From positions 1 through 41,963 of IMG/VR virus record IMGVR_UViG_3300047409_000492: a stretch of DNA of 41,963 nt; one strand, written 5' to 3'. The stretch comes from a virus. Each line of letters begins with the position of its first letter. Position 1 is the first letter of the stretch. Shown here in pieces: positions 4,993 through 41,687 of the stretch. The translations under genes and the position numbers were made by a program. The notes under the pieces were generated by a model. That model did not search any database and was not told the origin of the DNA. It worked only from the letters and a program-made list of their open reading frames with translations.

Positions 4993-5625
4993 TCAGGGGG
5001 GGCTCCAGGTGACCTCGCGGGCCTTCTTCTCCGCATAGAGCGCCCGGCGGCGTGCATTGGCCTTCTCCCGATAGGCGGCCGTGCGATGCTCCTCCCGGTC
5101 GCAAGCGCGACACGTTCGCTGATTCCGCTTCGATACGCGGGTGTTCTCGGGAGTGAATTCGTGCCCGTTCTTGCAGAATTGCTGCCGGGCTCGCTGGGCG
5201 GATAGGGAATTGCTTCGCAGTACATTGACCTGCGGAGTCACGGCCTCGAGGTGGTCCGGTCGGCAGCACGCAGGGTTTCGACAGAGATGGTCGAGCTGCA
5301 AGCCAGCTGGCACCGGACCGTTGACCACTTCATACGCATAGATATGCGTGCTGACCATGCGACGTACGGGTTTGCTCTGGTGAACGGTGCCATACCCATC
5401 CCGCCTGATCGATCCACGCCAAACCCAGCAGGGCCCCAACTCTGGCCGGTCCTCCGGGATCGGCCCGTTCTTGTCCACCTTGGTCCAGAATCGCTCAGCG
5501 AGCGGGATGCGCCGCTCCTCGAACGAGCAGGCGATGCTGCAATGCTTGGCCTGCCCTCGCTTGACGTAAACCGGCATGGTCTCGAAGGGTTGCCCGCACG
5601 TCTGACAAATCATCGTGACGGTCAT
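4993..5625 (-). CDS. HNH endonuclease 1 (zinc-finger flanked)
   Basis: 210 residues. The start is the ATG at 5625, coupled to the upstream gene by ATGA. It opens with a zinc motif (ICQTCGQPF, then CSIAC). The HNH_3-type core follows: RFWTKVDKNGP, GPCWVWRGS and LQLDHLCRNPACCRPDHLEA, the last carrying the HNH histidine and structural cysteines. A C-terminal Cys cluster (CKNGHEF, CRACD) precedes a basic tail. Such enzymes are usually free-standing homing endonucleases that cut DNA lacking the gene. It closely resembles the HNH gene at 37933-38676, so the two are probably paralogues. Confidence 0.88.
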   Translation of the reverse strand: MTVTMICQTCGQPFETMPVYVKRGQAKHCSIACSFEERRIPLAERFWTKVDKNGPIPEDRPELGPCWVWRGSIRRDGYGTVHQSKPVRRMVSTHIYAYEVVNGPVPAGLQLDHLCRNPACCRPDHLEAVTPQVNVLRSNSLSAQRARQQFCKNGHEFTPENTRVSKRNQRTCRACDREEHRTAAYREKANARRRALYAEKKAREVTWSPP

Positions 5626-5960
5626 GGCCACCACTCGGCGGAGAGATACTGCACGCCCCATTCGAGGGCGGAATTGCAGTCCGACTGCCATAAATCGAGG
5701 TGGAAGCCACGAACTCCACCGCCGGTATCCTCCGCCACGTAGGTTCGTGAAAGTCCTTCGATCCGCACCGTGGATCCCAATGGAATCCACTCGGGGTCAA
5801 CCGCAATCACGCCGGGCCGCGTCTGCGTTCCGCTCCGGGTTATTCCTTGCAGGCAGTAACTGGTCGTCTTGAATACGCCGCTCCCACTCGGCGCCTGGGC
5901 GTGGGCCGGTGGCCAGCTGGTGGCACCCAGCAGCACCAGGGCGGCCAAAGCCCGCGTCAT
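5622..5960 (-). CDS. Secreted 3D-domain protein (putative cell-wall enzyme)
   Basis: 112 residues from the ATG at 5960, overlapping the upstream stop by ATGA. Residues 1-20 are a signal peptide (MTRALAALVLLGATSWPPAH, followed by AQA). The rest is a 3D domain, a double-psi beta-barrel related to MltA and RlpA. Its three aspartates sit in IAVDPEWIPLGSTV, YVAEDTGGGVRG and FHLDLWQSD. Two cysteines (YCLQG, SDCNS) could form a disulphide. 3D proteins cleave peptidoglycan or assist its turnover. The gene is in the early operon, far from the GH25 lysis pair, so it may act in wall remodelling or superinfection exclusion rather than lysis. Confidence 0.82.
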   Translation of the reverse strand: MTRALAALVLLGATSWPPAHAQAPSGSGVFKTTSYCLQGITRSGTQTRPGVIAVDPEWIPLGSTVRIEGLSRTYVAEDTGGGVRGFHLDLWQSDCNSALEWGVQYLSAEWWP

Positions 5961-6611: not shown

Positions 6612-7319
6612 TTACTTCGCCCCCTTCCGCCGCGCCGCGTTCGCCTTCAAACGGATTTGCGTCGCGGTCCCATCCGTCGGCAGGTCTCGCCAGCTTCGGT
6701 AGTGAGCGATGGCATGGATGGACTGGACCGTCACGCCATGCTCCCGCGCGAGGGCGGATTGGCTTTCACCCGCCGCCAGCCGTTCACGAATGGCAACTAC
6801 CTGTTCGGCAGTCAACTTGGCTGAGAGATGCGCCTCGCCCATCAAACGAGGACCGGATCGACCCTTCCCCACTTTGTCTCTGGCGTTGTCGAGAGCACTT
6901 CCTGCGAAGAGGTGTGCGGGGTTCACACACGGCGGGTTGTCGCAGCGATGGCAGACCACTTGCCCCGGAACAAGGGGGCCGTAAGCCATCCGATAGCTGA
7001 CGCGGTGCGAGCGGTCGATGCGCTCGCCATCCCCGAAGCTCCCATAGCCGTGACTCGACTTGCCCGCGGTCCAAATCCAACAAGGACCCAATTCGGGGCG
7101 ATGCGCAGGGACTGGACCGTCGCGATTGACCTTGGCCCAGAAGCGATCAGCCATCGTTTCGTACTTGGGCTGCACGGGCACCCCGTTGCGATGCGCGATC
7201 GCCCGTACGGTCGTCACCGCAACTCCGGTGCGACGAGAGATCGCACGAAACGAAAGACCACCCTCGGCAATCCCTGCCAGGACGGCCTGCACTGCTTGAG
7301 GCGGGAGGCTGTAGCTCAC
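6612..7319 (-). CDS. HNH endonuclease 2 with two helix-turn-helix domains
   Basis: 235 residues from the GTG at 7319 (GGGGAG six bases upstream), overlapping the upstream stop by GTGA. An N-terminal HTH (SFRAISRRTGVAVTTVRAIA, about residues 18-40) precedes an HNH_3-type core: RFWAKVNRDGP, GPCWIWTAGKS, VCHRCDNPPCVNPAHLFAGS. A C-terminal HTH follows (QSALAREHGVTVQSIHAIAH). The two HTHs probably read DNA on either side of the cut, as in NUMOD-bearing homing enzymes. It is more distant from the other two HNH proteins in this genome than they are from each other. Confidence 0.86.
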   Translation of the reverse strand: MSYSLPPQAVQAVLAGIAEGGLSFRAISRRTGVAVTTVRAIAHRNGVPVQPKYETMADRFWAKVNRDGPVPAHRPELGPCWIWTAGKSSHGYGSFGDGERIDRSHRVSYRMAYGPLVPGQVVCHRCDNPPCVNPAHLFAGSALDNARDKVGKGRSGPRLMGEAHLSAKLTAEQVVAIRERLAAGESQSALAREHGVTVQSIHAIAHYRSWRDLPTDGTATQIRLKANAARRKGAK

Positions 7320-7564
7320 TTCGCCCTCCCCTTCGCCCGTCGTGCGGCGTGAGCCTTGGCGCGGATGCGCGCCAGGTGAGCTTGGTAGAGGTGCTCCGCC
7401 CGCCGCTCCCTTTCGTCGTCGGGTAAAGCGGCGTCGGTCTCCGCGAAGAACTTCCGTCGCAGCCCGGCCTGGCCCGAGCGCGCGAACTCGTGCATGTCGG
7501 AGGTGGCGGCTTTCATTTCGCCGCCGATCTTGCCGATCAGGCGGTAGCGGGTGGTATCGGCCAT
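7316..7564 (-). CDS. Unknown basic helical protein
   Basis: 82 residues from the ATG at 7564 with AAAGGAGG upstream, overlapping the previous stop (TGATG). The protein is helical and strongly basic at its C-terminus (AKAHAARRAKGRAK), with a charged middle (ALPDDERERRAEHLYQAHLA). It could bind nucleic acid, but no family is recognised. Confidence 0.62.
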   Translation of the reverse strand: MADTTRYRLIGKIGGEMKAATSDMHEFARSGQAGLRRKFFAETDAALPDDERERRAEHLYQAHLARIRAKAHAARRAKGRAK

Positions 7565-7782
7565 CAGGACACCTCCTTTCGGGGGCGACCCCGACGCGGG
7601 CCACCGGGCAGTTCGCTATCGGGAACCCAGTCCAGTGCGCTGAGCGCCGGATGACGCCGCGTCCGCGTCCCACAGGTCCGACAGCGGTAGCAATCGTCGA
7701 TCCAGTCCGGCGCCATGCGCGGTGCCGAACAGCAAAGATGGGAATGGGGGTCTCTCCCCCGTGCTAGAGTTCTCCTGGGCAC
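7564..7782 (-). CDS. Small Cys-rich (zinc-ribbon-like) protein
   Basis: 72 residues. The chosen start is the GTG at 7782, with GGAGG eight bases upstream. A GTG at 7863 also opens the frame but would overlap the regulator gene upstream. Cysteines in HLCCS and CYRCRTCG form a probable zinc site. The C-terminus is basic (GGPRRGRPRKEVS, AT-hook-like GRPRK), suggesting DNA binding. The exact function is unknown. Confidence 0.5.
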   Translation of the reverse strand: MPRRTLARGRDPHSHLCCSAPRMAPDWIDDCYRCRTCGTRTRRHPALSALDWVPDSELPGGPRRGRPRKEVS

Positions 7783-8199: not shown

Positions 8200-8619
8200 C
8201 TGGCCCGCGCTGATCGTCTCGCCCGCGAGAGACTGGCGGACCTGATTTACACGTCGGGTCTTTCCAAGAAGCAGGTCGCCGCCCGTTGCGGGAAACAGCC
8301 GCAGTGGTTGAGCGACCGTCTGAGCGGTCATAGCCAATTGCTGGCGGATGACATTCCGCTCATCGCTACGGGACTGGGGATCTCACCATGTGCCTTTTAC
8401 GACGACGAGAGGGAGCGCAACGAACGAATGAACGCATTGATCCGGGAGCAGGCGCGTCCCATCCTCGAACGCCGCCGAGCGGAGCGCGGGGAGACGGAGC
8501 CATCCCTGGGACAGGAGTTGGCCGCCGACGCCCTGGCAGTGGCAGCCAAGGTGCCCGAGGCGCAGCTCCGCCAGTTCCTGGACTTCCTCGCCTGGCAGGC
8601 CGAACGCGCCGATCGGTGA
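8200..8619 (+). CDS. Cro/C1-type HTH repressor (apparent CTG start)
   Basis: 139 residues, the first rightward gene. The HTH spans about residues 12-55: LADLIYTSGLSKKQVAARCG, then KQPQWLSDRLSGHSQ, LADDIPLIATGLGIS and PCAFYD, a lambda-repressor-type fold. The C-terminal half is charged and helical (LREFL-like LRQFLDFLAWQAERADR). No ATG, GTG or TTG lies ahead of the HTH in frame. A CTG at 8200 has GAGGAG eight bases upstream. An out-of-frame ATG at 8193 leads to a stop after six codons. The TTG at 8308 would remove the recognition helix. It probably maintains lysogeny by binding the neighbouring palindromes. Confidence 0.72.
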   Translation: MARADRLARERLADLIYTSGLSKKQVAARCGKQPQWLSDRLSGHSQLLADDIPLIATGLGISPCAFYDDERERNERMNALIREQARPILERRRAERGETEPSLGQELAADALAVAAKVPEAQLRQFLDFLAWQAERADR

Positions 8620-8625
8620 GACGCC

Positions 8626-8653
8626 TTGACTTCTAGAACGCGCGTTCTACGAT
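8626..8653 (+). promoter_or_regulatory. Promoter with SOS-box-like palindromic operator
   Basis: TTGACT (8626-8631) and TACGAT (8648-8653) are 16 bp apart. Between them lies a perfect 16-bp palindrome, TAGAACGCGCGTTCTA (8634-8649), containing GAAC-N4-GTTC. That is the core of LexA boxes in Firmicutes, Actinobacteria and some other phyla. It is placed ideally for repression of the 8683 gene. Confidence 0.6.
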
Positions 8654-8682
8654 GTGGCAATCACAGCATTGCAGAGGTTGGC

Positions 8683-9033
8683 ATGAACCGAACACCCGAT
8701 GATCTACCCGTGGGCCACCTCATCGAGCTCGGCAAGCGCTGGGGCGAGCGGATCGAGCGCCACACCCAGGAGACCGTAGACGGCGCGGTGGTCGACCACG
8801 AGGAGCGGATGCATCTGCCGCCACGTCGGACGGACCCGGTGACGGCGGTCCCCTTTGCGGGCGAGCGCATCCCGGACATGACGACGTGTCAGGGCATTGA
8901 GTTCATGCACCAGGGGCATTCCTTAGAGACTGCCGCCGAGCTCTTGGGCGTCGACGCGCTGGTGCTGGAGCGCGCCATCGTGGACTACCGCCCGCCCTAT
9001 CGCCGCTGGCTGGTGGCGCGAGGCATCGGGTGA
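8683..9033 (+). CDS. Unknown protein under palindromic operator control
   Basis: 116 residues from the ATG at 8683 with AGAGG five bases upstream. The N-terminal part is acidic/polar (LIELGKRWGERIERHTQETV). The C-terminal part contains a probable HTH (IEFMHQGHSLETAAELLGVD, then ALVLERAI) resembling the small HTH of DUF433-type antitoxins. It sits directly after the SOS-box-like operator, so a DNA-damage response or induction role, such as an antirepressor, is possible. The family is not firmly recognised. Confidence 0.6.
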   Translation: MNRTPDDLPVGHLIELGKRWGERIERHTQETVDGAVVDHEERMHLPPRRTDPVTAVPFAGERIPDMTTCQGIEFMHQGHSLETAAELLGVDALVLERAIVDYRPPYRRWLVARGIG

Positions 9034-9068
9034 CCAGCCATGAACCTGCGGATGGAGGAGTTGGGACT

Positions 9069-9458
9069 ATGAAACGAACCATTCTGGCGTCGGTGCTGAG
9101 CTCGGTGGCGGCGTCGGTGCTTACCGCGATCGTAGTCGTACTGCTGCTCCGTCCACCCCCGGTGGAGGCACAGCCTACCACGTTGTTCGCCCAGCAGCTG
9201 CGGCTGTCTTCGCCCGACGGCAAGGCCGAGCTGGTGCTCAATCCGAACAGCCTGGTGATGACGGACGGCTCGGGGAATGCGAGCGTCTACCTGGGGACCC
9301 AGACTGCCACGCCCTCGGGGCCGATGTTCTTTCTGTTTGATGGCAACAATGTCGCGCGGGTGGGGCTCAAGCTGGACCCCAACGGCCGACCCTGCATTGC
9401 GACGTTCGACGGCGATGCACGTCCAACCAGTGTCCAACCCACGACCTGTGTTCCGTGA
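9069..9458 (+). CDS. Exported or membrane-anchored beta-repeat protein (lysogenic conversion candidate)
   Basis: 129 residues from the ATG at 9069 (GGAG eight bases upstream). Residues 1-35 are a signal peptide or anchor: MKRTILASVLSSVAASVLTA, then IVVVLLLRPPPVEA. The mature part has short beta repeats of the type LxLxSPDGKAELVL, GSGNASVYLG and ARVGLKLDPNGRP, ending with two cysteines. Such repeats are seen in exported bacterial proteins of unknown role. Its place in the lysogeny module makes surface modification or superinfection exclusion plausible. Its stop overlaps the next start (GTGA). Confidence 0.65.
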   Translation: MKRTILASVLSSVAASVLTAIVVVLLLRPPPVEAQPTTLFAQQLRLSSPDGKAELVLNPNSLVMTDGSGNASVYLGTQTATPSGPMFFLFDGNNVARVGLKLDPNGRPCIATFDGDARPTSVQPTTCVP

Positions 9459-9718
9459 ACGAGCGGGCCTACACCCAGGAGCAGCTGCTGCGGCGACTGA
9501 GCCTGCGGCAGGACACCTTGGCCGCCCGGCTCCGCGCCAACCTGGCCGAAGGCAGTCCCCTCTTCGACCTCCGACCCTACGGCGAAGTGCAACCCGAGGG
9601 GAGCCTGCTTATTCGGGATCCGGCGGCCCTGGAGGCGGCGCTGCGGGCGGATCTGCAGAAGCTGCTGACGACGCTGGTGCAAAGCATGCTGGATACAGCC
9701 TACGCAGATCGTCCATGA
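9455..9718 (+). CDS. Unknown helical protein in lysogeny module
   Basis: 87 residues from the GTG at 9455, overlapping the upstream stop (GTGA). The protein is helical and Leu-rich (QEQLLRRLSLRQDTLAARLR, ALRADLQKLLTTLVQSML). No membrane segment or known motif is seen. A minus-strand ORF overlaps its last 110 bases. Confidence 0.55.
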   Translation: MNERAYTQEQLLRRLSLRQDTLAARLRANLAEGSPLFDLRPYGEVQPEGSLLIRDPAALEAALRADLQKLLTTLVQSMLDTAYADRP

Positions 9719-9791
9719 GCGACTGCACCAGCTCGGCGGCGAAGTCGTCGATCCGCGGGAGCTCTTCGGGGGTGAGATCAGGGTTGACCAC
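9609..9791 (-). CDS. Possible small acidic protein, convergent to the lysogeny genes
   Basis: 60 residues from the GTG at 9791, with AGGAAAG just upstream. The first part looks natural and helical (NPDLTPEELPRIDDFAAELV, then QSLMDDLRRLY). The tail is Pro/Ala-rich and overlaps the plus-strand gene antisense. It is the only minus-strand candidate inside the rightward module, and it may be a chance open frame. Confidence 0.3.
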   Translation of the reverse strand: MVNPDLTPEELPRIDDFAAELVQSLMDDLRRLYPACFAPASSAASADPPAAPPPGPPDPE

Positions 9792-10086
9792 GGTTCTTTC
9801 CTGCTTCAGGTACTCGCTCCCATTGTAGAAGCCGTCTCTCCCCGACCGGAAAAGTGGACTTAGAAACTGACCCAAACTGACCCGAACTAACCCCTGGCTT
9901 TCGGGTAAGAGCCTGCCCGTCCACCCCTCGAAAAAGAGACGGTAACCGGCGCTCTTTTTGCGCCTGCTCCAGGCGTGCGGTAAGCCAGATGCACGCGGAT
10001 ACTCGAAGGGTATCAGGTTGACATGGGAATCGGAAATGCGAGGATCGTAGGCACGAATTCAGCGGGTAACCGGAGGGCTTCTTTAA
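9719..10086. other. Non-coding, repeat-rich region before integrase (putative attP)
   Basis: 368 bp without a convincing gene apart from the weak minus ORF. It holds three imperfect 10-bp tandem units around actgaccc/actaaccc (about 9866-9893), an inverted repeat aaaaagag/ctcttttt (9931-9938, 9951-9958), a cgcctg-ctc-caggcg hairpin (9961-9975) and gcgtgc/gcacgc arms (about 9973-9996). It also holds gatac/gtatc arms, GGTAACCGG copies and a TTGACA box at 10018. Such density directly upstream of a tyrosine integrase is typical of attP plus control sites. The crossover core cannot be identified without the host sequence. Confidence 0.5.
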
Positions 10087-10129
10087 ATGAAGGTCGCCAA
10101 GCCAGCGAACGAGACGGTAACCGGCACTC
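9936..10129 (+). repeat. Three GGTAACCGG direct repeats flanking the integrase start
   Basis: gagacggtaaccggcgctc (9936-9954) recurs as gagacggtaaccggcactc (10111-10129, inside the integrase N-terminus), with one mismatch in 19. A third shorter copy, ggtaaccgg, is at 10065-10073. They are candidate integrase arm-type sites or autoregulatory operators. Confidence 0.55.
10018..10046 (+). promoter_or_regulatory. Possible integrase promoter
   Basis: A perfect -35 TTGACA lies at 10018-10023. The best-spaced -10 candidates near 10040-10046 (GAGGAT, AGGATC) are poor. This suggests a weak or activator-dependent promoter for the integrase. Confidence 0.35.
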
Positions 10130-11028
10130 GGGACCTCACCGACTACCAGGCGCTGCTCTGGTCCTGGCTCCTACACCTGGAGGTGGGCGGCAAGAGTATC
10201 GAGACCCGCAAGGTCTACCGCACGTCGGCCGAGCAGCTGGGTGCCCACCTGCTGGCGCAGGGCATGCCCGTCTACGTCGCCGGTATCACCCGCGAGCACG
10301 TGGAGTCCTATCTCCTCGAGCTCCGTCGCCAGCATCCGCAGAGCAGCACGGTGGCCACCCGCTACCAGGGCCTGCGCCAGTGGTTCAAGTGGCTCGCCGA
10401 AGAGCACGAGATCGACGTCTCGCCCCTGCTCAACATCAAGAAACCGACCTACACCGAGAAGGAGATCTCGCTGCTGCCCGACGTGGCGGTCAAGCGGATG
10501 CTCGACGACTGCAAGGGGCCGGGCTTCGCGGACCGGCGCGACCTGGCGCTCCTGCGCCTGTTTCTGGCCACGCCGCTCCGCCGCTCGGAGATCGCCAACC
10601 TTAAGCTCACCGACATCGACCTATCAGCGCGCACGGTCCACGTGACGGTGAAGGGCAACCGCCAGCGCACGGTGCCCATCGACGTGAAGGCCGTGAGTGC
10701 GCTCGACCGCTACCGTCGCATCCGCTCGAGCTCGCGCTATGCGGATCGAGCCGGGCTCTGGCTGGGCCAGCTCGGGCCGCTCACCGACAGTGGGCTCTAT
10801 CAGGTGCTTCGCCGTCGCGCGAAACACGCGGGGGTGGAGGGCTTTCACCCGCACTTGTTCCGGCACTTGTTCGCGCACGGCTGGCTCAAGGCCGACGGCC
10901 AGGAGCGGGACCTGATGCGACTGGGCGGCTGGCGCTCGGCCGCGGTGATGCGCAAGTATGGGGAGATGCTCGCCGAGGAGCGGGCCGTGGAGGCCTACCG
11001 ACGGCTCAGCCCGGGGGATCGGTTCTAG
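10087..11028 (+). CDS. int: Tyrosine recombinase (phage integrase)
   Basis: 313 residues, XerC/D-like. Residues 15-105 form the SAM-like core-binding domain. The catalytic domain carries R in PLRRSEIANL near 163, a beta-hairpin Lys (VKGNRQRTVPI), HLFRH near 254-258, LGGWRS, and the Tyr in RKYGEM near 291, so the R-K-H-R-W-Y set is intact. It catalyses site-specific integration and excision between attP and the host attB. The start is the ATG at 10087 with GGAGG ten bases upstream. One copy of the GGTAACCGG repeat lies within its first codons. No excisionase is identified; a small neighbour may serve. Confidence 0.93.
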   Translation: MKVAKPANETVTGTRDLTDYQALLWSWLLHLEVGGKSIETRKVYRTSAEQLGAHLLAQGMPVYVAGITREHVESYLLELRRQHPQSSTVATRYQGLRQWFKWLAEEHEIDVSPLLNIKKPTYTEKEISLLPDVAVKRMLDDCKGPGFADRRDLALLRLFLATPLRRSEIANLKLTDIDLSARTVHVTVKGNRQRTVPIDVKAVSALDRYRRIRSSSRYADRAGLWLGQLGPLTDSGLYQVLRRRAKHAGVEGFHPHLFRHLFAHGWLKADGQERDLMRLGGWRSAAVMRKYGEMLAEERAVEAYRRLSPGDRF

Positions 11029-37734: not shown

Positions 37735-37949
37735 CGCTCCGTCCTCCACTTCCGCATGGCCTCGGCTTCCTCGAGCGCCTCGGCGATCTGGGACGGGCCG
37801 TGGTGGGTCAAGCCACTGGCGAGCTGGGCCCAGTAGAGCACCACCAGGGGGGCCAGCTCATCGTGGGCCCGCAGCACGAAGATCGGCTCGTCCTCCTCCG
37901 CGCGGTTCAGGCAGGATCGGGGGTCGTTCACTTCATCGCATTTCAACAT
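37731..37949 (-). CDS. Small protein of a common phage type (unknown function)
   Basis: 72 residues from the ATG at 37949 with AAGGAG seven bases upstream. The sequence EEDEPIFVLRAHDELAPLVV, then LYWAQLASGL and IAEALEEAEAMRKW matches a pattern often seen in small phage and prophage proteins of unknown role. It overlaps the end of the HNH gene by 17 bases and couples to the XRE gene. Confidence 0.65.
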   Translation of the reverse strand: MLKCDEVNDPRSCLNRAEEDEPIFVLRAHDELAPLVVLYWAQLASGLTHHGPSQIAEALEEAEAMRKWRTER

Positions 37950-38676
37950 CGGTGTACTCCTTCGGGTAGTCGTTGCGTAGAAGCTCGAGGATCCGCCCGC
38001 GGTCGGCCGGACGGTGCGCCCGGGCGTAGTCGGCAGCTCGTCGAATATTGACGAGCTGCGTAACCGCTTCGAGGTGGTCAGGATTGACACACGCGCGATT
38101 GCGACAGAGATGATCAAGCTGCAACCCCGCCGGCACGGGACCATGCAGCTGTTCATAAGCGAACCGATGCGCCAGAGTAGTGCGCGGCCTCTCCACTCCA
38201 AACACGCCATAGCCGTTGGTGGTCGCCGCCGTCCATACCCAGCAAGGTCCAAGCTCCGGGTGACCCTCTACGGGAGGTCCCGACCGATCGACTTTGCTCC
38301 AAAACCGATCGACGAGCGGTGGCCCTGGAGACGGAGGGCGACGTGCACGCGCCCCACACGCCCGAGAACAGAAGCGCACCTCTGCGTGTTTCCGGCTGCG
38401 GAGAAATACCCGCCCGCACTCCGCACAGGGCACGAGGTCTCGGGTCCGCTTAAACGCCACCATGACACAGGCTCGAGAGCAATAGCGCTGAAGGCGCCAT
38501 CTCCTGGCAAACTGCAGTCCGCAGGTGGGACAGATCACCTGCGGGGGAGCCTTCCGGACGTAGACCCGAGCGGAAGCACCACAGGACCTGGAGCAAAAAC
38601 GTTGGCGGTGCTGAGCGCCACGGGTAGTGAAATCGTGGCCGCAGTAGGCGCAGGGACGAGTAAACTCGGGGAGCAT
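37933..38676 (-). CDS. HNH endonuclease 3 with three N-terminal zinc fingers
   Basis: 247 residues from the ATG at 38676 with GGAGG six bases upstream. Three successive four-cysteine fingers precede the nuclease: CAYCGHDF...CSRSC, CPTCGLQF...CSRAC, CAECGRVF...CSRAC (residues about 9-110). The HNH_3 core follows: RFWSKVDRSGP, GPCWVWTAATTNGYGVF, LQLDHLCRNRACVNPDHLEA. It is a probable homing endonuclease with an expanded DNA-reading module, and its core is closest to HNH endonuclease 1. A strong hairpin precedes its ribosome site. Confidence 0.88.
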   Translation of the reverse strand: MLPEFTRPCAYCGHDFTTRGAQHRQRFCSRSCGASARVYVRKAPPQVICPTCGLQFARRWRLQRYCSRACVMVAFKRTRDLVPCAECGRVFLRSRKHAEVRFCSRACGARARRPPSPGPPLVDRFWSKVDRSGPPVEGHPELGPCWVWTAATTNGYGVFGVERPRTTLAHRFAYEQLHGPVPAGLQLDHLCRNRACVNPDHLEAVTQLVNIRRAADYARAHRPADRGRILELLRNDYPKEYTDVEMR

Positions 38677-39172: not shown

Positions 39173-39694
39173 TTACCGCCCGCCCTGGTCGTCGAGCGGC
39201 AGCGCGGGCTGCTCCCACACGGTACTCGCCATGAGCTTCAGGTCCTCGCGCCAGGGTCCGTAGGCCTCGAGCGCCGCGTTGAACCCCGCGAAGTCGTAGG
39301 GGCGGAGCTCGGCGGTCCCCGTGTTCTCGTTCGAGCCGGCTTTACTAAGCTGCTCGAACATGAGGGCCTCCCACTGCAGGGCGGTGAGGCCGAGGTCGAC
39401 GAGGTGGTTGGCACTGAAGACCACCACGAAGTCGGCCTGGCTGTAGTGGAGCGTGAGCCCCCCGGGCTTCAGGAGGTCGGCCAGGATCGGCTCCCCTCGG
39501 CGGGTCCCGCCCCGCGCGCGCCAGAGGTAGTCCACGCTGAAGTCGGTGAGCAGCTCGAAGCGCGGGGCGTGGCGGTCGATCACCGCGTCGGCCAGGCGCG
39601 AGAGCTCCGGGGCCACCAGGAAGGGCTTGCCGTTGAAGGCGTCCTTGCCGGGCACGGTGAGCTCGAAGGTCATCTGGGTCACGGGTGCGGCCAT
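39173..39694 (-). CDS. PhageMetallopep-like protein lacking the zinc ligands
   Basis: 173 residues from the ATG at 39694. The order and spacing match phage-encoded putative metallopeptidases: FSVDYLWRARGGTRRGEP, LADLLKPGG, ADFVVVFSANHLVDLGLTAL, then the active-site position and LRPYDFAGFNAALEAYGPW. In that family the active site reads HELCH-like, and the later segment reads RPHD. Here they are FEQLS and RPYD, so all expected histidines are replaced. It is probably a catalytically dead relative retained for binding. The family assignment is from memory of its pattern; the missing residues are read directly. Confidence 0.65.
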   Translation of the reverse strand: MAAPVTQMTFELTVPGKDAFNGKPFLVAPELSRLADAVIDRHAPRFELLTDFSVDYLWRARGGTRRGEPILADLLKPGGLTLHYSQADFVVVFSANHLVDLGLTALQWEALMFEQLSKAGSNENTGTAELRPYDFAGFNAALEAYGPWREDLKLMASTVWEQPALPLDDQGGR

Positions 39695-39711: not shown

Positions 39712-40794
39712 TTAGTCGTTCAGTCGAGCGGAGAGGGCGCGGAAAGCGGTCGCTGCCACGAGCGGAACGACGCCGTTGCCGAGTGCGTGCAGTCGGTCCA
39801 ACCGCACGGGAAGCCCATCAGCCACTCGACAAACTGCGGGTTCAAAACCGGGCGGCACGCCGCGCCATGCGGACAGGTCGGCGGGGCCAGGGGGGAAGAG
39901 CGGACGGTCTGGTCCGTCAGGCTCGGCGAGTTGCCATAGTTGCCCGCCCCCCTCGCGTCGGTCGTCTTGGGCGTGGCCCACCGCGCAGTCTGCTGGTCGA
40001 GGCTGAGCGAGCGCCGCTCGAGGGGAGCGAGGGTCGCCCCCTGGTCCGAACGCCAGTCCCTGGCGTTCGGAGTCGCCCAGAGGGAGGCCGTCACCGCTTT
40101 CGCTTGTCCGCGTAGCAGCAACTCGCTCGAGCGATCCCCGCCCCGACTCAGATGGCCACCCATCGTGTCGGCCACGGTCGGGGTCTGCCACAGGGCCGCG
40201 GCCAACGCCAGCGTTGGCCGCTCGGCCGCTCCTATCGAAGGCGATTGATTGATCCGCTCCGTCGCGCTCGCATCCGGCGTCGGCCAGGAGGAAGAGGCGG
40301 TCGCGCTGATGGGGTGCCCCGACCTCCGCCGCGCTGAACACGTCCCATTCGCAAGCGTACCCGAGCGCGGCCAGGTCCCCGAGAACGTGTTCAATTCCGC
40401 CATGAAGGAGATTTGGGACGTTCTCCAGGAACACGTAGCGGGGTCCCACTTCCCGAACCACCCGCGCGATCTGCGGCCAGAGCCAGCGGTCGTCGTCGGT
40501 CTTGGCGCGCTTGCCGGCGAGGCTCCAGGGCTGGCACGGGAAGCCTGCAGAGACGAGATCCACGACGCCACGCCATGGGCGGCCGTCAAAGGTCGTGACA
40601 TCGTCCCAAACAGGGGCTGGGCATAGGCTCTGGTCTTCCATCCGCGCCACGAGGCAGGCTGCGGCGAAGGCGTCCCGCTCGACCCAGCAAACAACGCGAG
40701 CGTGGGGGACGGCGAGCTCGAGTCCGAGCTCGAGTCCGCCGACGCCAGCACAGAGGGCGAGAACGTGGAGGGGACGTACAGCCAGGCCATTCAC
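39712..40794 (-). CDS. C5-cytosine DNA methyltransferase
   Basis: 360 residues from the GTG at 40794 with AAGGAG five bases upstream; the GTG overlaps the loader gene's stop. Motif I is LALCAGVGGLELGL, motif IV FPCQPWS near residue 83 (catalytic Cys), motif VI LENV near 121, motif VIII HQRDRLF near 161 and motif X LHALGNGVVP near 340. It transfers methyl groups to cytosine C5, probably protecting phage DNA from host restriction; no partner nuclease is present. The region between motifs VIII and X is variable and polar. Nearly the whole gene is also open in a second frame with recognisable protein features (39720-40790). Confidence 0.92.
   Translation of the reverse strand: MNGLAVRPLHVLALCAGVGGLELGLELAVPHARVVCWVERDAFAAACLVARMEDQSLCPAPVWDDVTTFDGRPWRGVVDLVSAGFPCQPWSLAGKRAKTDDDRWLWPQIARVVREVGPRYVFLENVPNLLHGGIEHVLGDLAALGYACEWDVFSAAEVGAPHQRDRLFLLADAGCERDGADQSIAFDRSGRAANAGVGRGPVADPDRGRHDGWPSESGRGSLERVAATRTSESGDGLPLGDSERQGLAFGPGGDPRSPRAALAQPRPADCAVGHAQDDRREGGGQLWQLAEPDGPDRPLFPPGPADLSAWRGVPPGFEPAVCRVADGLPVRLDRLHALGNGVVPLVAATAFRALSARLND
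39720..40790 (-). CDS. Overprinted protein sharing the methyltransferase gene
   Basis: 356 residues from the ATG at 40790, four bases after the methyltransferase GTG and nine bases from the same AAGGAG. It begins MAWLYVPSTFSPS. Signatures are SWRGWKTRAYAQPLFGTM, WISSLQASRASPGASP, CSWRTSQ, TWPRSGTLANGTCSARR, SSSWPTPDAS, SLWATPNARDW and NPQFVEWLMGFPCGWTD. I recall closely similar stretches in phage and prophage proteins annotated separately, so selection on this frame is likely. It ends eight bases before the methyltransferase stop. No catalytic motif is visible and its function is unknown. The competing explanation is a chance open frame mirroring conserved methyltransferase motifs. Confidence 0.5.
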   Translation of the reverse strand: MAWLYVPSTFSPSVLASADSSSDSSSPSPTLALFAGSSGTPSPQPASWRGWKTRAYAQPLFGTMSRPLTAAHGVASWISSLQASRASPGASPASAPRPTTTAGSGRRSRGWFGKWDPATCSWRTSQISFMAELNTFSGTWPRSGTLANGTCSARRRSGHPISATASSSWPTPDASATERINQSPSIGAAERPTLALAAALWQTPTVADTMGGHLSRGGDRSSELLLRGQAKAVTASLWATPNARDWRSDQGATLAPLERRSLSLDQQTARWATPKTTDARGAGNYGNSPSLTDQTVRSSPLAPPTCPHGAACRPVLNPQFVEWLMGFPCGWTDCTHSATASFRSWQRPLSAPSPLD

Positions 40795-41687
40795 ACCGTC
40801 TCCTTTCGGGTGCGCAGGTTGGGGGCGTCGTCGGGGAAGCGCAAGACCAGGCACATCTCGGCCAGGCGCTGGCTGATGCGCGGGCCCACGTGGCCGTCGA
40901 GCTCACCTTGTGGCAGGTTGCTGGTGAAGATGGTGGCCAGCTCGTAGTTGTTGCGGTGGTTCACCAGGGCAAACAGCTTCTCTTCGACCCAGTCGGAGAC
41001 CTTCTCGGCGCCGAGGTCGTCGACCACCAGCAGGGCCACCGACTTGACGGCCTCCATCACCTGGGCTTCGCGGGGGCCCGCCTCGCCCCGCTCGCGGTTG
41101 TAGGTCTCGCGGATACGGTCCAACAGGTCGGGACTGGTCAGAAACAGGGCCTCGCAGTGGGTCGACCCTACTCGCTCCCGCATGGCACAGATGGCCAGGC
41201 CGGTCTTGCCCACCCCCTGGAGTCCGGCGAGCAGCAGGCTGGCGCGGGGCGGGTCGAGGGCCCAGCGCTGGGTCGCCTCCGCCAGGGGGGCGGTGATCGG
41301 GACGGAGGGGTAGGTCATGAACGTCACGTCCTTGAACTTCGGGGGCACGCTCTGGCGGAAGATGCGGGCCACCTGCTGCTCGGAGCTGGTCGAGCAGGCG
41401 GTGCAGGGGACCGCCTGGCCGAACCCCGGATCGCCGGGGTGGGCGCGGTGGTCGACGACCTTGCCCACTCCGTAGCAATACTGGCAGGTGGCCTGCTCCG
41501 CGGCGAGGTCGGTCCGTCGAGGGGGTAGTCCCTCGGGATCGGCCACCAGTTGCCAGTAGGCCAGGACTGCCGCATTTTTTTCAGAGCCCGACGGAGGTGA
41601 GCCAGGCGCGGTCGGCGGCGATGCGGGCGGGGCTGGCCCCGTCGGTGCGGGTGCGAGCTGCGCGAGGGTGGTGGCCAGGGGTTCCAT
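40791..41687 (-). CDS. DnaC-like helicase loader ATPase with zinc finger
   Basis: 298 residues from the ATG at 41687 with AAGGAG seven bases upstream. A Pro/Ala-rich leader (1-36) precedes a zinc site (CQYCYGVGKV...CTACS, residues about 67-97). The AAA+ core has Walker A LAGLQGVGKTGLA, Walker B LLVVDDLGAEKVS, sensor TIFTSNLPQGELDG and the Arg region VGPRISQRLAEM. It loads the replicative helicase onto origin DNA. No DnaB-type helicase is encoded, so the host enzyme is presumably recruited. The leader overlaps the C-terminus of the initiator gene by 107 bases. Confidence 0.87.
   Translation of the reverse strand: MEPLATTLAQLAPAPTGPAPPASPPTAPGSPPSGSEKNAAVLAYWQLVADPEGLPPRRTDLAAEQATCQYCYGVGKVVDHRAHPGDPGFGQAVPCTACSTSSEQQVARIFRQSVPPKFKDVTFMTYPSVPITAPLAEATQRWALDPPRASLLLAGLQGVGKTGLAICAMRERVGSTHCEALFLTSPDLLDRIRETYNRERGEAGPREAQVMEAVKSVALLVVDDLGAEKVSDWVEEKLFALVNHRNNYELATIFTSNLPQGELDGHVGPRISQRLAEMCLVLRFPDDAPNLRTRKETV

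Follow-up and report, generated by a model that had tools for sequence, protein, structure and literature searches.

A single locus of the IMG/VR virus record IMGVR_UViG_3300047409_000492 very probably encodes, as judged from its sequence, one two-subunit C5-cytosine methyltransferase of the M.EcoHK31I kind, in which the two subunit genes overlap over almost their entire length and the target-recognition domain (TRD) is located in the beta subunit. The record was analysed over its full length of 41,963 bases, which is referred to here as the window. The features of the locus are listed in Table 1, where the outer frame is designated frame A (alpha) and the inner frame is designated frame B (beta).

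Table 1. Positions of the overlapping methyltransferase frames, their motifs and the upstream gene in the window
Feature	Position	Strand	Remarks
Upstream DnaC-like helicase loader	40791..41687	minus	phrog_50, 2.3e-39
Shared Shine-Dalgarno-like site, AAAGGAG	40800..40806	minus	5 nt to A start, 9 nt to B start; from sequence
Frame A (alpha)	39712..40794	minus	GTG 40794-40792, stop 39714-39712, 360 aa
Motif I in frame A, within VLALCAGVGGLELG	40732..40764	minus	From translation; L14, G17, G19 and G20 nearly invariant
Motif IV in frame A, GFPCQP, with catalytic Cys	40528..40545	minus	G84, P86 and C87 invariant in 64 sequences; Q88 nearly invariant
Motif VI in frame A, ENV	40417..40425	minus	E124 and N125 invariant
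Motif VIII in frame A, HQRDR	40297..40311	minus	R166 invariant; H162 and R164 nearly invariant
Predicted disordered linker, frame A residues 193-293	39916..40218	minus	pLDDT <50 throughout
Motif X in frame A, LGNGV	39769..39783	minus	G339 and N340 nearly invariant; pLDDT >90 after residue 340
Frame B (beta)	39720..40790	minus	ATG 40790-40788, stop 39722-39720, 356 aa
Target-recognition region with WPTP/WQTP/WATP repeats, frame B residues 168-310	39861..40289	minus	wB 0.30; aligns with the in-frame TRD of mycobacteriophage methyltransferases
Motif IX in frame B, NPQFVEWLMGFPCGWTD (including LMGFPCGW)	39792..39842	minus	P318, M325 and P328 nearly invariant

The two full-length open frames reported in the first-pass annotation, as well as the ribosome site that they share, were confirmed at exactly the positions given there, and the overprinting is on the same strand. 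Frame B is in the +1 register to frame A, the first codon position of B corresponding to the second codon position of A. No stop codon interrupts frame B over its whole length, and the third frame of the locus contains 7 internal stops. The TGA of the DnaC-like gene (40793-40791) is in frame with B and overlaps the start of A, resulting in the junction GTGA.ATG; since this stop codon sits within the junction, re-initiation could also reach both starts. The two-start arrangement is kept across relatives: an ATG exactly 4 nt past the A start was present in 17 of 96 non-redundant loci, versus 0-7 at other offsets in the +1 frame.

In C5-methyltransferases the catalytic domain, which holds motifs I-VIII, is complemented by a TRD and by motifs IX and X. 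Frame A is a C5-cytosine methyltransferase. It matches Pfam DNA_methylase (1.2e-33) across residues 11-171 and phrog_363 (1.3e-62), contains motifs I, IV (PCQ), VI (ENV), VIII and X, and has the methyltransferase fold; in a fold search with its AlphaFold model the nearest structure was M.HhaI (E 1.6e-13), with matching cores. The model was confident for residues 1-190 and the motif X helix, residues 193-293 being disordered. The first-pass annotation had assigned all C5-methyltransferase motifs to this frame. This does not hold for motif IX, which is absent from the translation of A and is found in frame B. Frame A therefore has neither a conserved TRD nor motif IX: besides the missing motif and the disordered segment, its region 176-300, which spans the TRD region, was under no purifying selection in relatives (see below).

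Frame B matched phrog_1008 (2e-31) and phrog_27243 (2e-11), as well as phrog_26627, and had no match in Pfam, NCBIfam, PADLOC or PDB sequences. All 64 of the 64 B homologues compared matched phrog_1008, and 54 matched phrog_27243. Homologues of B were found at 77 viral loci, with another 24 on bacterial contigs, in line with the earlier suggestion that the second frame represents a conserved and widely distributed family. At each of the 77 viral loci fetched with B, the frame lay over a methyltransferase gene in the same register; a stand-alone B gene away from a methyltransferase was not found among them. Against a profile made from distant relatives the window B scored 292.6 bits, and its codon-permuted copies reached 127 +/- 13. 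This test is not fully specific, as the +2 frame and, in single-chain genes, the +1 frame also gave somewhat elevated scores, and it was kept as supporting evidence only. AlphaFold prediction of B alone was poor (mean pLDDT 54.9) and was better only at motif IX, the C-terminal helices and a short hairpin, which might be as expected for a subunit that needs its partner. A fold search with this model gave no match, as its low confidence would lead one to expect, and the TRD fold of B is thus putative.

The partition of the motifs over the two frames was found throughout the family. Both IX and X were recognised in 40 of the 76 non-redundant viral dual loci, with IX in the +1 frame and X in A, and the spacing between them was 13 codons in 32 of these 40. 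The window has the same spacing, with motif IX 13 codons ahead of motif X. Motif IX was present in frame A at only 2 of the 76 loci (one of them with X recognised), and in the +1 frame of codon-permuted controls its frequency was 0.2-0.8%. In the single-chain methyltransferases of mycobacteriophages, motifs IX and X share a frame, mostly with a spacing of 23 codons, and the +1 frame is closed, in most cases by 7-16 stops. In a profile comparison the catalytic half of these enzymes corresponded to A (probability 100, E 2e-50) and their TRD/IX part corresponded to B (probability 97.9, E 5e-13). In addition, the block PTPxxADxxGGHLxRxGxRxxELLL is common to the window B and the in-frame TRD of Rita and Estave1.

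Since TRD-like repeats and the motif IX missing from A are found in B, and since this module is in frame with the catalytic domain in the single-chain relatives, B is best read as a second subunit, and not as a separate gene of an anti-restriction pair as had been proposed from the first inspection. It has its own start and belongs to a distinct conserved family, and annotators often label it as a hypothetical protein, all of which would also fit an independent accessory protein (e.g. anti-restriction or regulatory) that merely overlaps the methyltransferase. However, the overlap with a methyltransferase in the same register at all 77 viral loci makes this very improbable, as does the finding that B holds exactly the motif missing from A and is homologous to the TRD of single-chain methyltransferases.

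The chance occurrence of the open second frame was assessed by permutation of synonymous codons in A, with the A protein and the codon usage fixed. For the window gene alone, the length of B was marginally improbable (p = 0.03-0.05), and the p value is no lower than this because the gene has a G+C content of 69%. The G+C content by codon position in frame A (0.81/0.55/0.71) departs from that of most other window genes (about 0.70/0.49/0.86-0.95), as is expected from two superposed frames. In relatives with a G+C content of 50-56%, 0 stops were present in 340-400 codons where 4-6 are expected. Homologues of A (80 from viral contigs) were fetched regardless of B; in the 27 non-redundant loci of this set, which is not perfectly blind to B since some of the A peptide search patterns fall in the TRD region, B was open over at least 85% of A in 27 of 27, with p<=0.05 in 25. 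The family-wide Fisher p was about 1e-26 for the loci fetched with A and about 1e-50 for those fetched with B, which is decisive: family-wide, the open B frame is beyond chance. It is hardly credible, then, that B is untranslated and only a non-coding echo of the conserved sequence of A in a G+C-rich genome. The marginal p value of the window gene agrees with such an echo, and much of the similarity in the N-terminal part of B is indeed an echo of A (null score 117 bits). Against it stand the stop-free frames at 50-56% G+C, the many stops in the +1 frame of the single-chain relatives, and the finding that in the TRD region A is neutral while B is constrained.

The latter was obtained by a comparison of the rates in both frames across phages, as had been suggested in the first-pass annotation. 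Substitutions were classed as NN, NS or SN by their effect in A (first letter) and B (second letter), with wA = NN/SN and wB = NN/NS. Rates for the dual loci are from 23 independent pairs with 75-97% identity; they were obtained by plain counting, with no tree, and some of the pairs are linked by older common ancestry. The window itself was left out of the pairwise rates, its nearest relative (47% in A) being too distant for synonymous sites. In the dual loci, wA was 0.12-0.32 and wB 0.42-0.49 in the catalytic region, 1.02 and 0.30, respectively, in the TRD region, and 0.33 and 0.36 in the IX/X region. In the single-chain control (6 pairs) the corresponding values were 0.13-0.15 and 0.64-0.68, 0.66 and 1.01, and 0.14 and 0.54. 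Selection thus passes from A in the catalytic domain to B in the TRD and then acts on both frames at motifs IX and X. This regional pattern indicates that the TRD is encoded in B and that A crosses the TRD region under little or no constraint. The N-terminal half of B was only weakly constrained relative to the control (0.42-0.49 versus 0.64-0.68), and it may chiefly be required to remain open downstream of the shared start. In the named E. coli Kagunavirus-type phages (4 pairs), wB was 1.76 in the 29 codons before the inner start and 0.28-0.66 inside the inner frame; in the TRD, wA was 0.60 and wB 0.34. The 'short beta' pairs (n=5) were too few for firm regional rates.

According to the first-pass annotation, the second frame would be discredited if its homologues were found only antiparallel to methyltransferase motifs, with frequent stops or no constraint. 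The antiparallel relation is inapplicable, as the frames are parallel. Homologues of B always lay over methyltransferase genes, yet they were open and under purifying selection.

The switch of the selected frame near residue 175, together with the domain order, which is the same in the single-chain relatives, could also be explained by programmed frameshifting, in which translation starts in A and a +1 slip near the end of the catalytic domain fuses the core to the TRD and motif IX of B. We consider this quite improbable, because B is open for at least 160 codons upstream of the switch, which is needless for a frameshift, and because the fusion would be without motif X, which is located in A beyond the TRD. 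Moreover, B has its own start codon at a conserved position.

For the two-subunit enzyme we propose that one Shine-Dalgarno site recruits ribosomes and that initiation would take place at either GTG 40794 (A) or ATG 40790 (B). The alpha subunit would consist of a SAM-binding catalytic domain (motifs I-VIII), a disordered linker of about 100 residues and a motif X helix folded back against the core. In the beta subunit, a largely disordered N-terminal half would precede the WPTP-type repeats of the target-recognition region and motif IX. The complete enzyme, which the single-chain relatives make as one polypeptide, would be rebuilt by association of alpha and beta, and it probably methylates the phage DNA against host restriction. 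Translation of B, assembly of A and B, activity and an anti-restriction role of the heterodimer are what we infer from sequence data. No restriction-enzyme gene was identified among the examined genes adjoining the A/B pair, so that self-protection of the phage DNA would be the simplest role. The genes examined were the DnaC-like gene on the upstream side and, on the downstream side, putative metallopeptidase, VRR-NUC-like and HNH genes. The one directly downstream (39173-39694, minus strand) matches Pfam PhageMetallopep (5.8e-11).

Elsewhere in the window, three ORFs on the minus strand (4993-5790, 6612-7673 and 37933-38676) contain the HNH-type block LDHLCRNxACxxPDHLEAVT or a variant of it; apparently, several homing-type endonucleases are present in one phage. 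The genome is mostly minus-strand, with a small plus-strand island at 8308-11028. Within this island a tyrosine-recombinase-like ORF (10087-11028) is found, which suggests a temperate phage.

The arrangement was compared to known systems. The beta gene of M.EcoHK31I (YGGCCR), said to have been described by Lee in 1995, reportedly lies in another frame inside the alpha gene, a beta of 176 aa inside an alpha of 309 aa; the +1 position of the window B within A resembles this arrangement. M.EcoHK31I is a two-polypeptide C5-methyltransferase whose larger subunit contains motifs I-VIII and X and was predicted to hold the TRD as well, motif IX being confined to the smaller subunit (PMC3404938). Compared by description, the window likewise has I-VIII-type motifs and X in the larger polypeptide and IX in another. 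It differs in that the overlap spans nearly both genes with a shared start region, in that selection and profile comparison place the TRD in beta instead of alpha, and in that it is a phage locus next to which no restriction enzyme was found. M.AquI carries motif X on its second subunit and has a split variable region (PMC3404938). The window shares with it a catalytic part and a target/motif IX part on two polypeptides, but its motif X stays with the catalytic subunit A and does not accompany IX on the second subunit.

The single-chain enzymes Estave1 gp75 and Rita gp76 (mycobacteriophage) and Gordonia phage Derg gp4 belong to the same catalytic family and have the same WPTP-type TRD together with motif IX, but in one frame and one chain, with the +1 frame closed. 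In Mycobacterium phage Jarcob (gp69/gp70) a frame change splits the methyltransferase, which is one chain in the nearly identical Rita gp76, into two annotated genes. The Mycobacterium phage pairs Phelipe gp80/gp79 and Bora gp5/gp6 are annotated as consecutive, slightly overlapping 'DNA methylase' genes, as is the case in many Mycobacterium phages; such pairs are possibly M.AquI-like split enzymes. The same +1 overlap as in the window, with IX in the inner frame, is present in Escherichia phages K1ind2 (gp32/gp33) and K1H, Xanthomonas phage PhiXhv-18 and Paenibacillus phage Honeybear (gp55/gp56), where the inner start is 82-202 nt after the outer start instead of 4 nt. Out-of-frame HNH endonucleases in phage methylases have been described as the ShiLan domain (PMC11855218). 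These too are hidden proteins in another frame of a phage methylase gene, but they are mobile insertions in the single-chain type and no subunit.

Dual-frame genes were found in phages of Acinetobacter, Synechococcus, Microcystis, Pseudomonas, Paenibacillus, Xanthomonas, Escherichia (including prophages) and Salmonella (epsilon15). Depositors annotated both frames in K1ind2, K1H ('Mte8-like'), PhiXhv-18 and Honeybear, the second frame as methyltransferase or 'Mte8-like' with no mechanism stated. Records of Kagunavirus and similar E. coli phages differ for one and the same overlapping gene, which has been entered as A only, as B only or as both, and as a result the protein databases hold inconsistent halves. 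In a Sphingomonas paeninsulae plasmid and in Synechococcus phage Ssp-JY39, B is the only annotated frame, labelled a hypothetical protein, and the records have no entry for the methyltransferase. The depositor's phrog_1008 gene of Escherichia phage vB_VIPECOMC04 is the inner frame. A search of E. coli genomes revealed overlapping-type prophage methyltransferases and no restriction-modification operon. No paper on a wide phage distribution was found in the literature covered, which excluded most subscription journals.

The arrangement, known but supposedly rare, is common in phages. What goes beyond the M.EcoHK31I precedent is that the overlap is nearly complete and the start region is shared, that the TRD is in beta, that selection is handed between frames and that a broad range of phages is involved. 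We consider the chances even that C5-methyltransferases with overlap-coded alpha and beta subunits form a major and mostly overlooked class of modification enzymes in phages, in which the recognition module moves between an in-frame (single-chain) and an out-of-frame (split) state. If this is true, the frame under selection changes along the gene, and recognition by beta could evolve with hardly any constraint imposed by alpha. In dsDNA phages, long overlaps on the same strand are mostly disregarded or annotated wrongly. Here about 1 kb is dual-coding in dozens of unrelated phages, so that either subunit may go missing from databases, and a single frame, cloned by itself, would be expected to yield a dead enzyme. 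The family would offer a clean natural system for the evolution of overlapping genes, in which the single-chain relatives serve as a control, and it would also supply many naturally split methyltransferases, which are useful for engineering.
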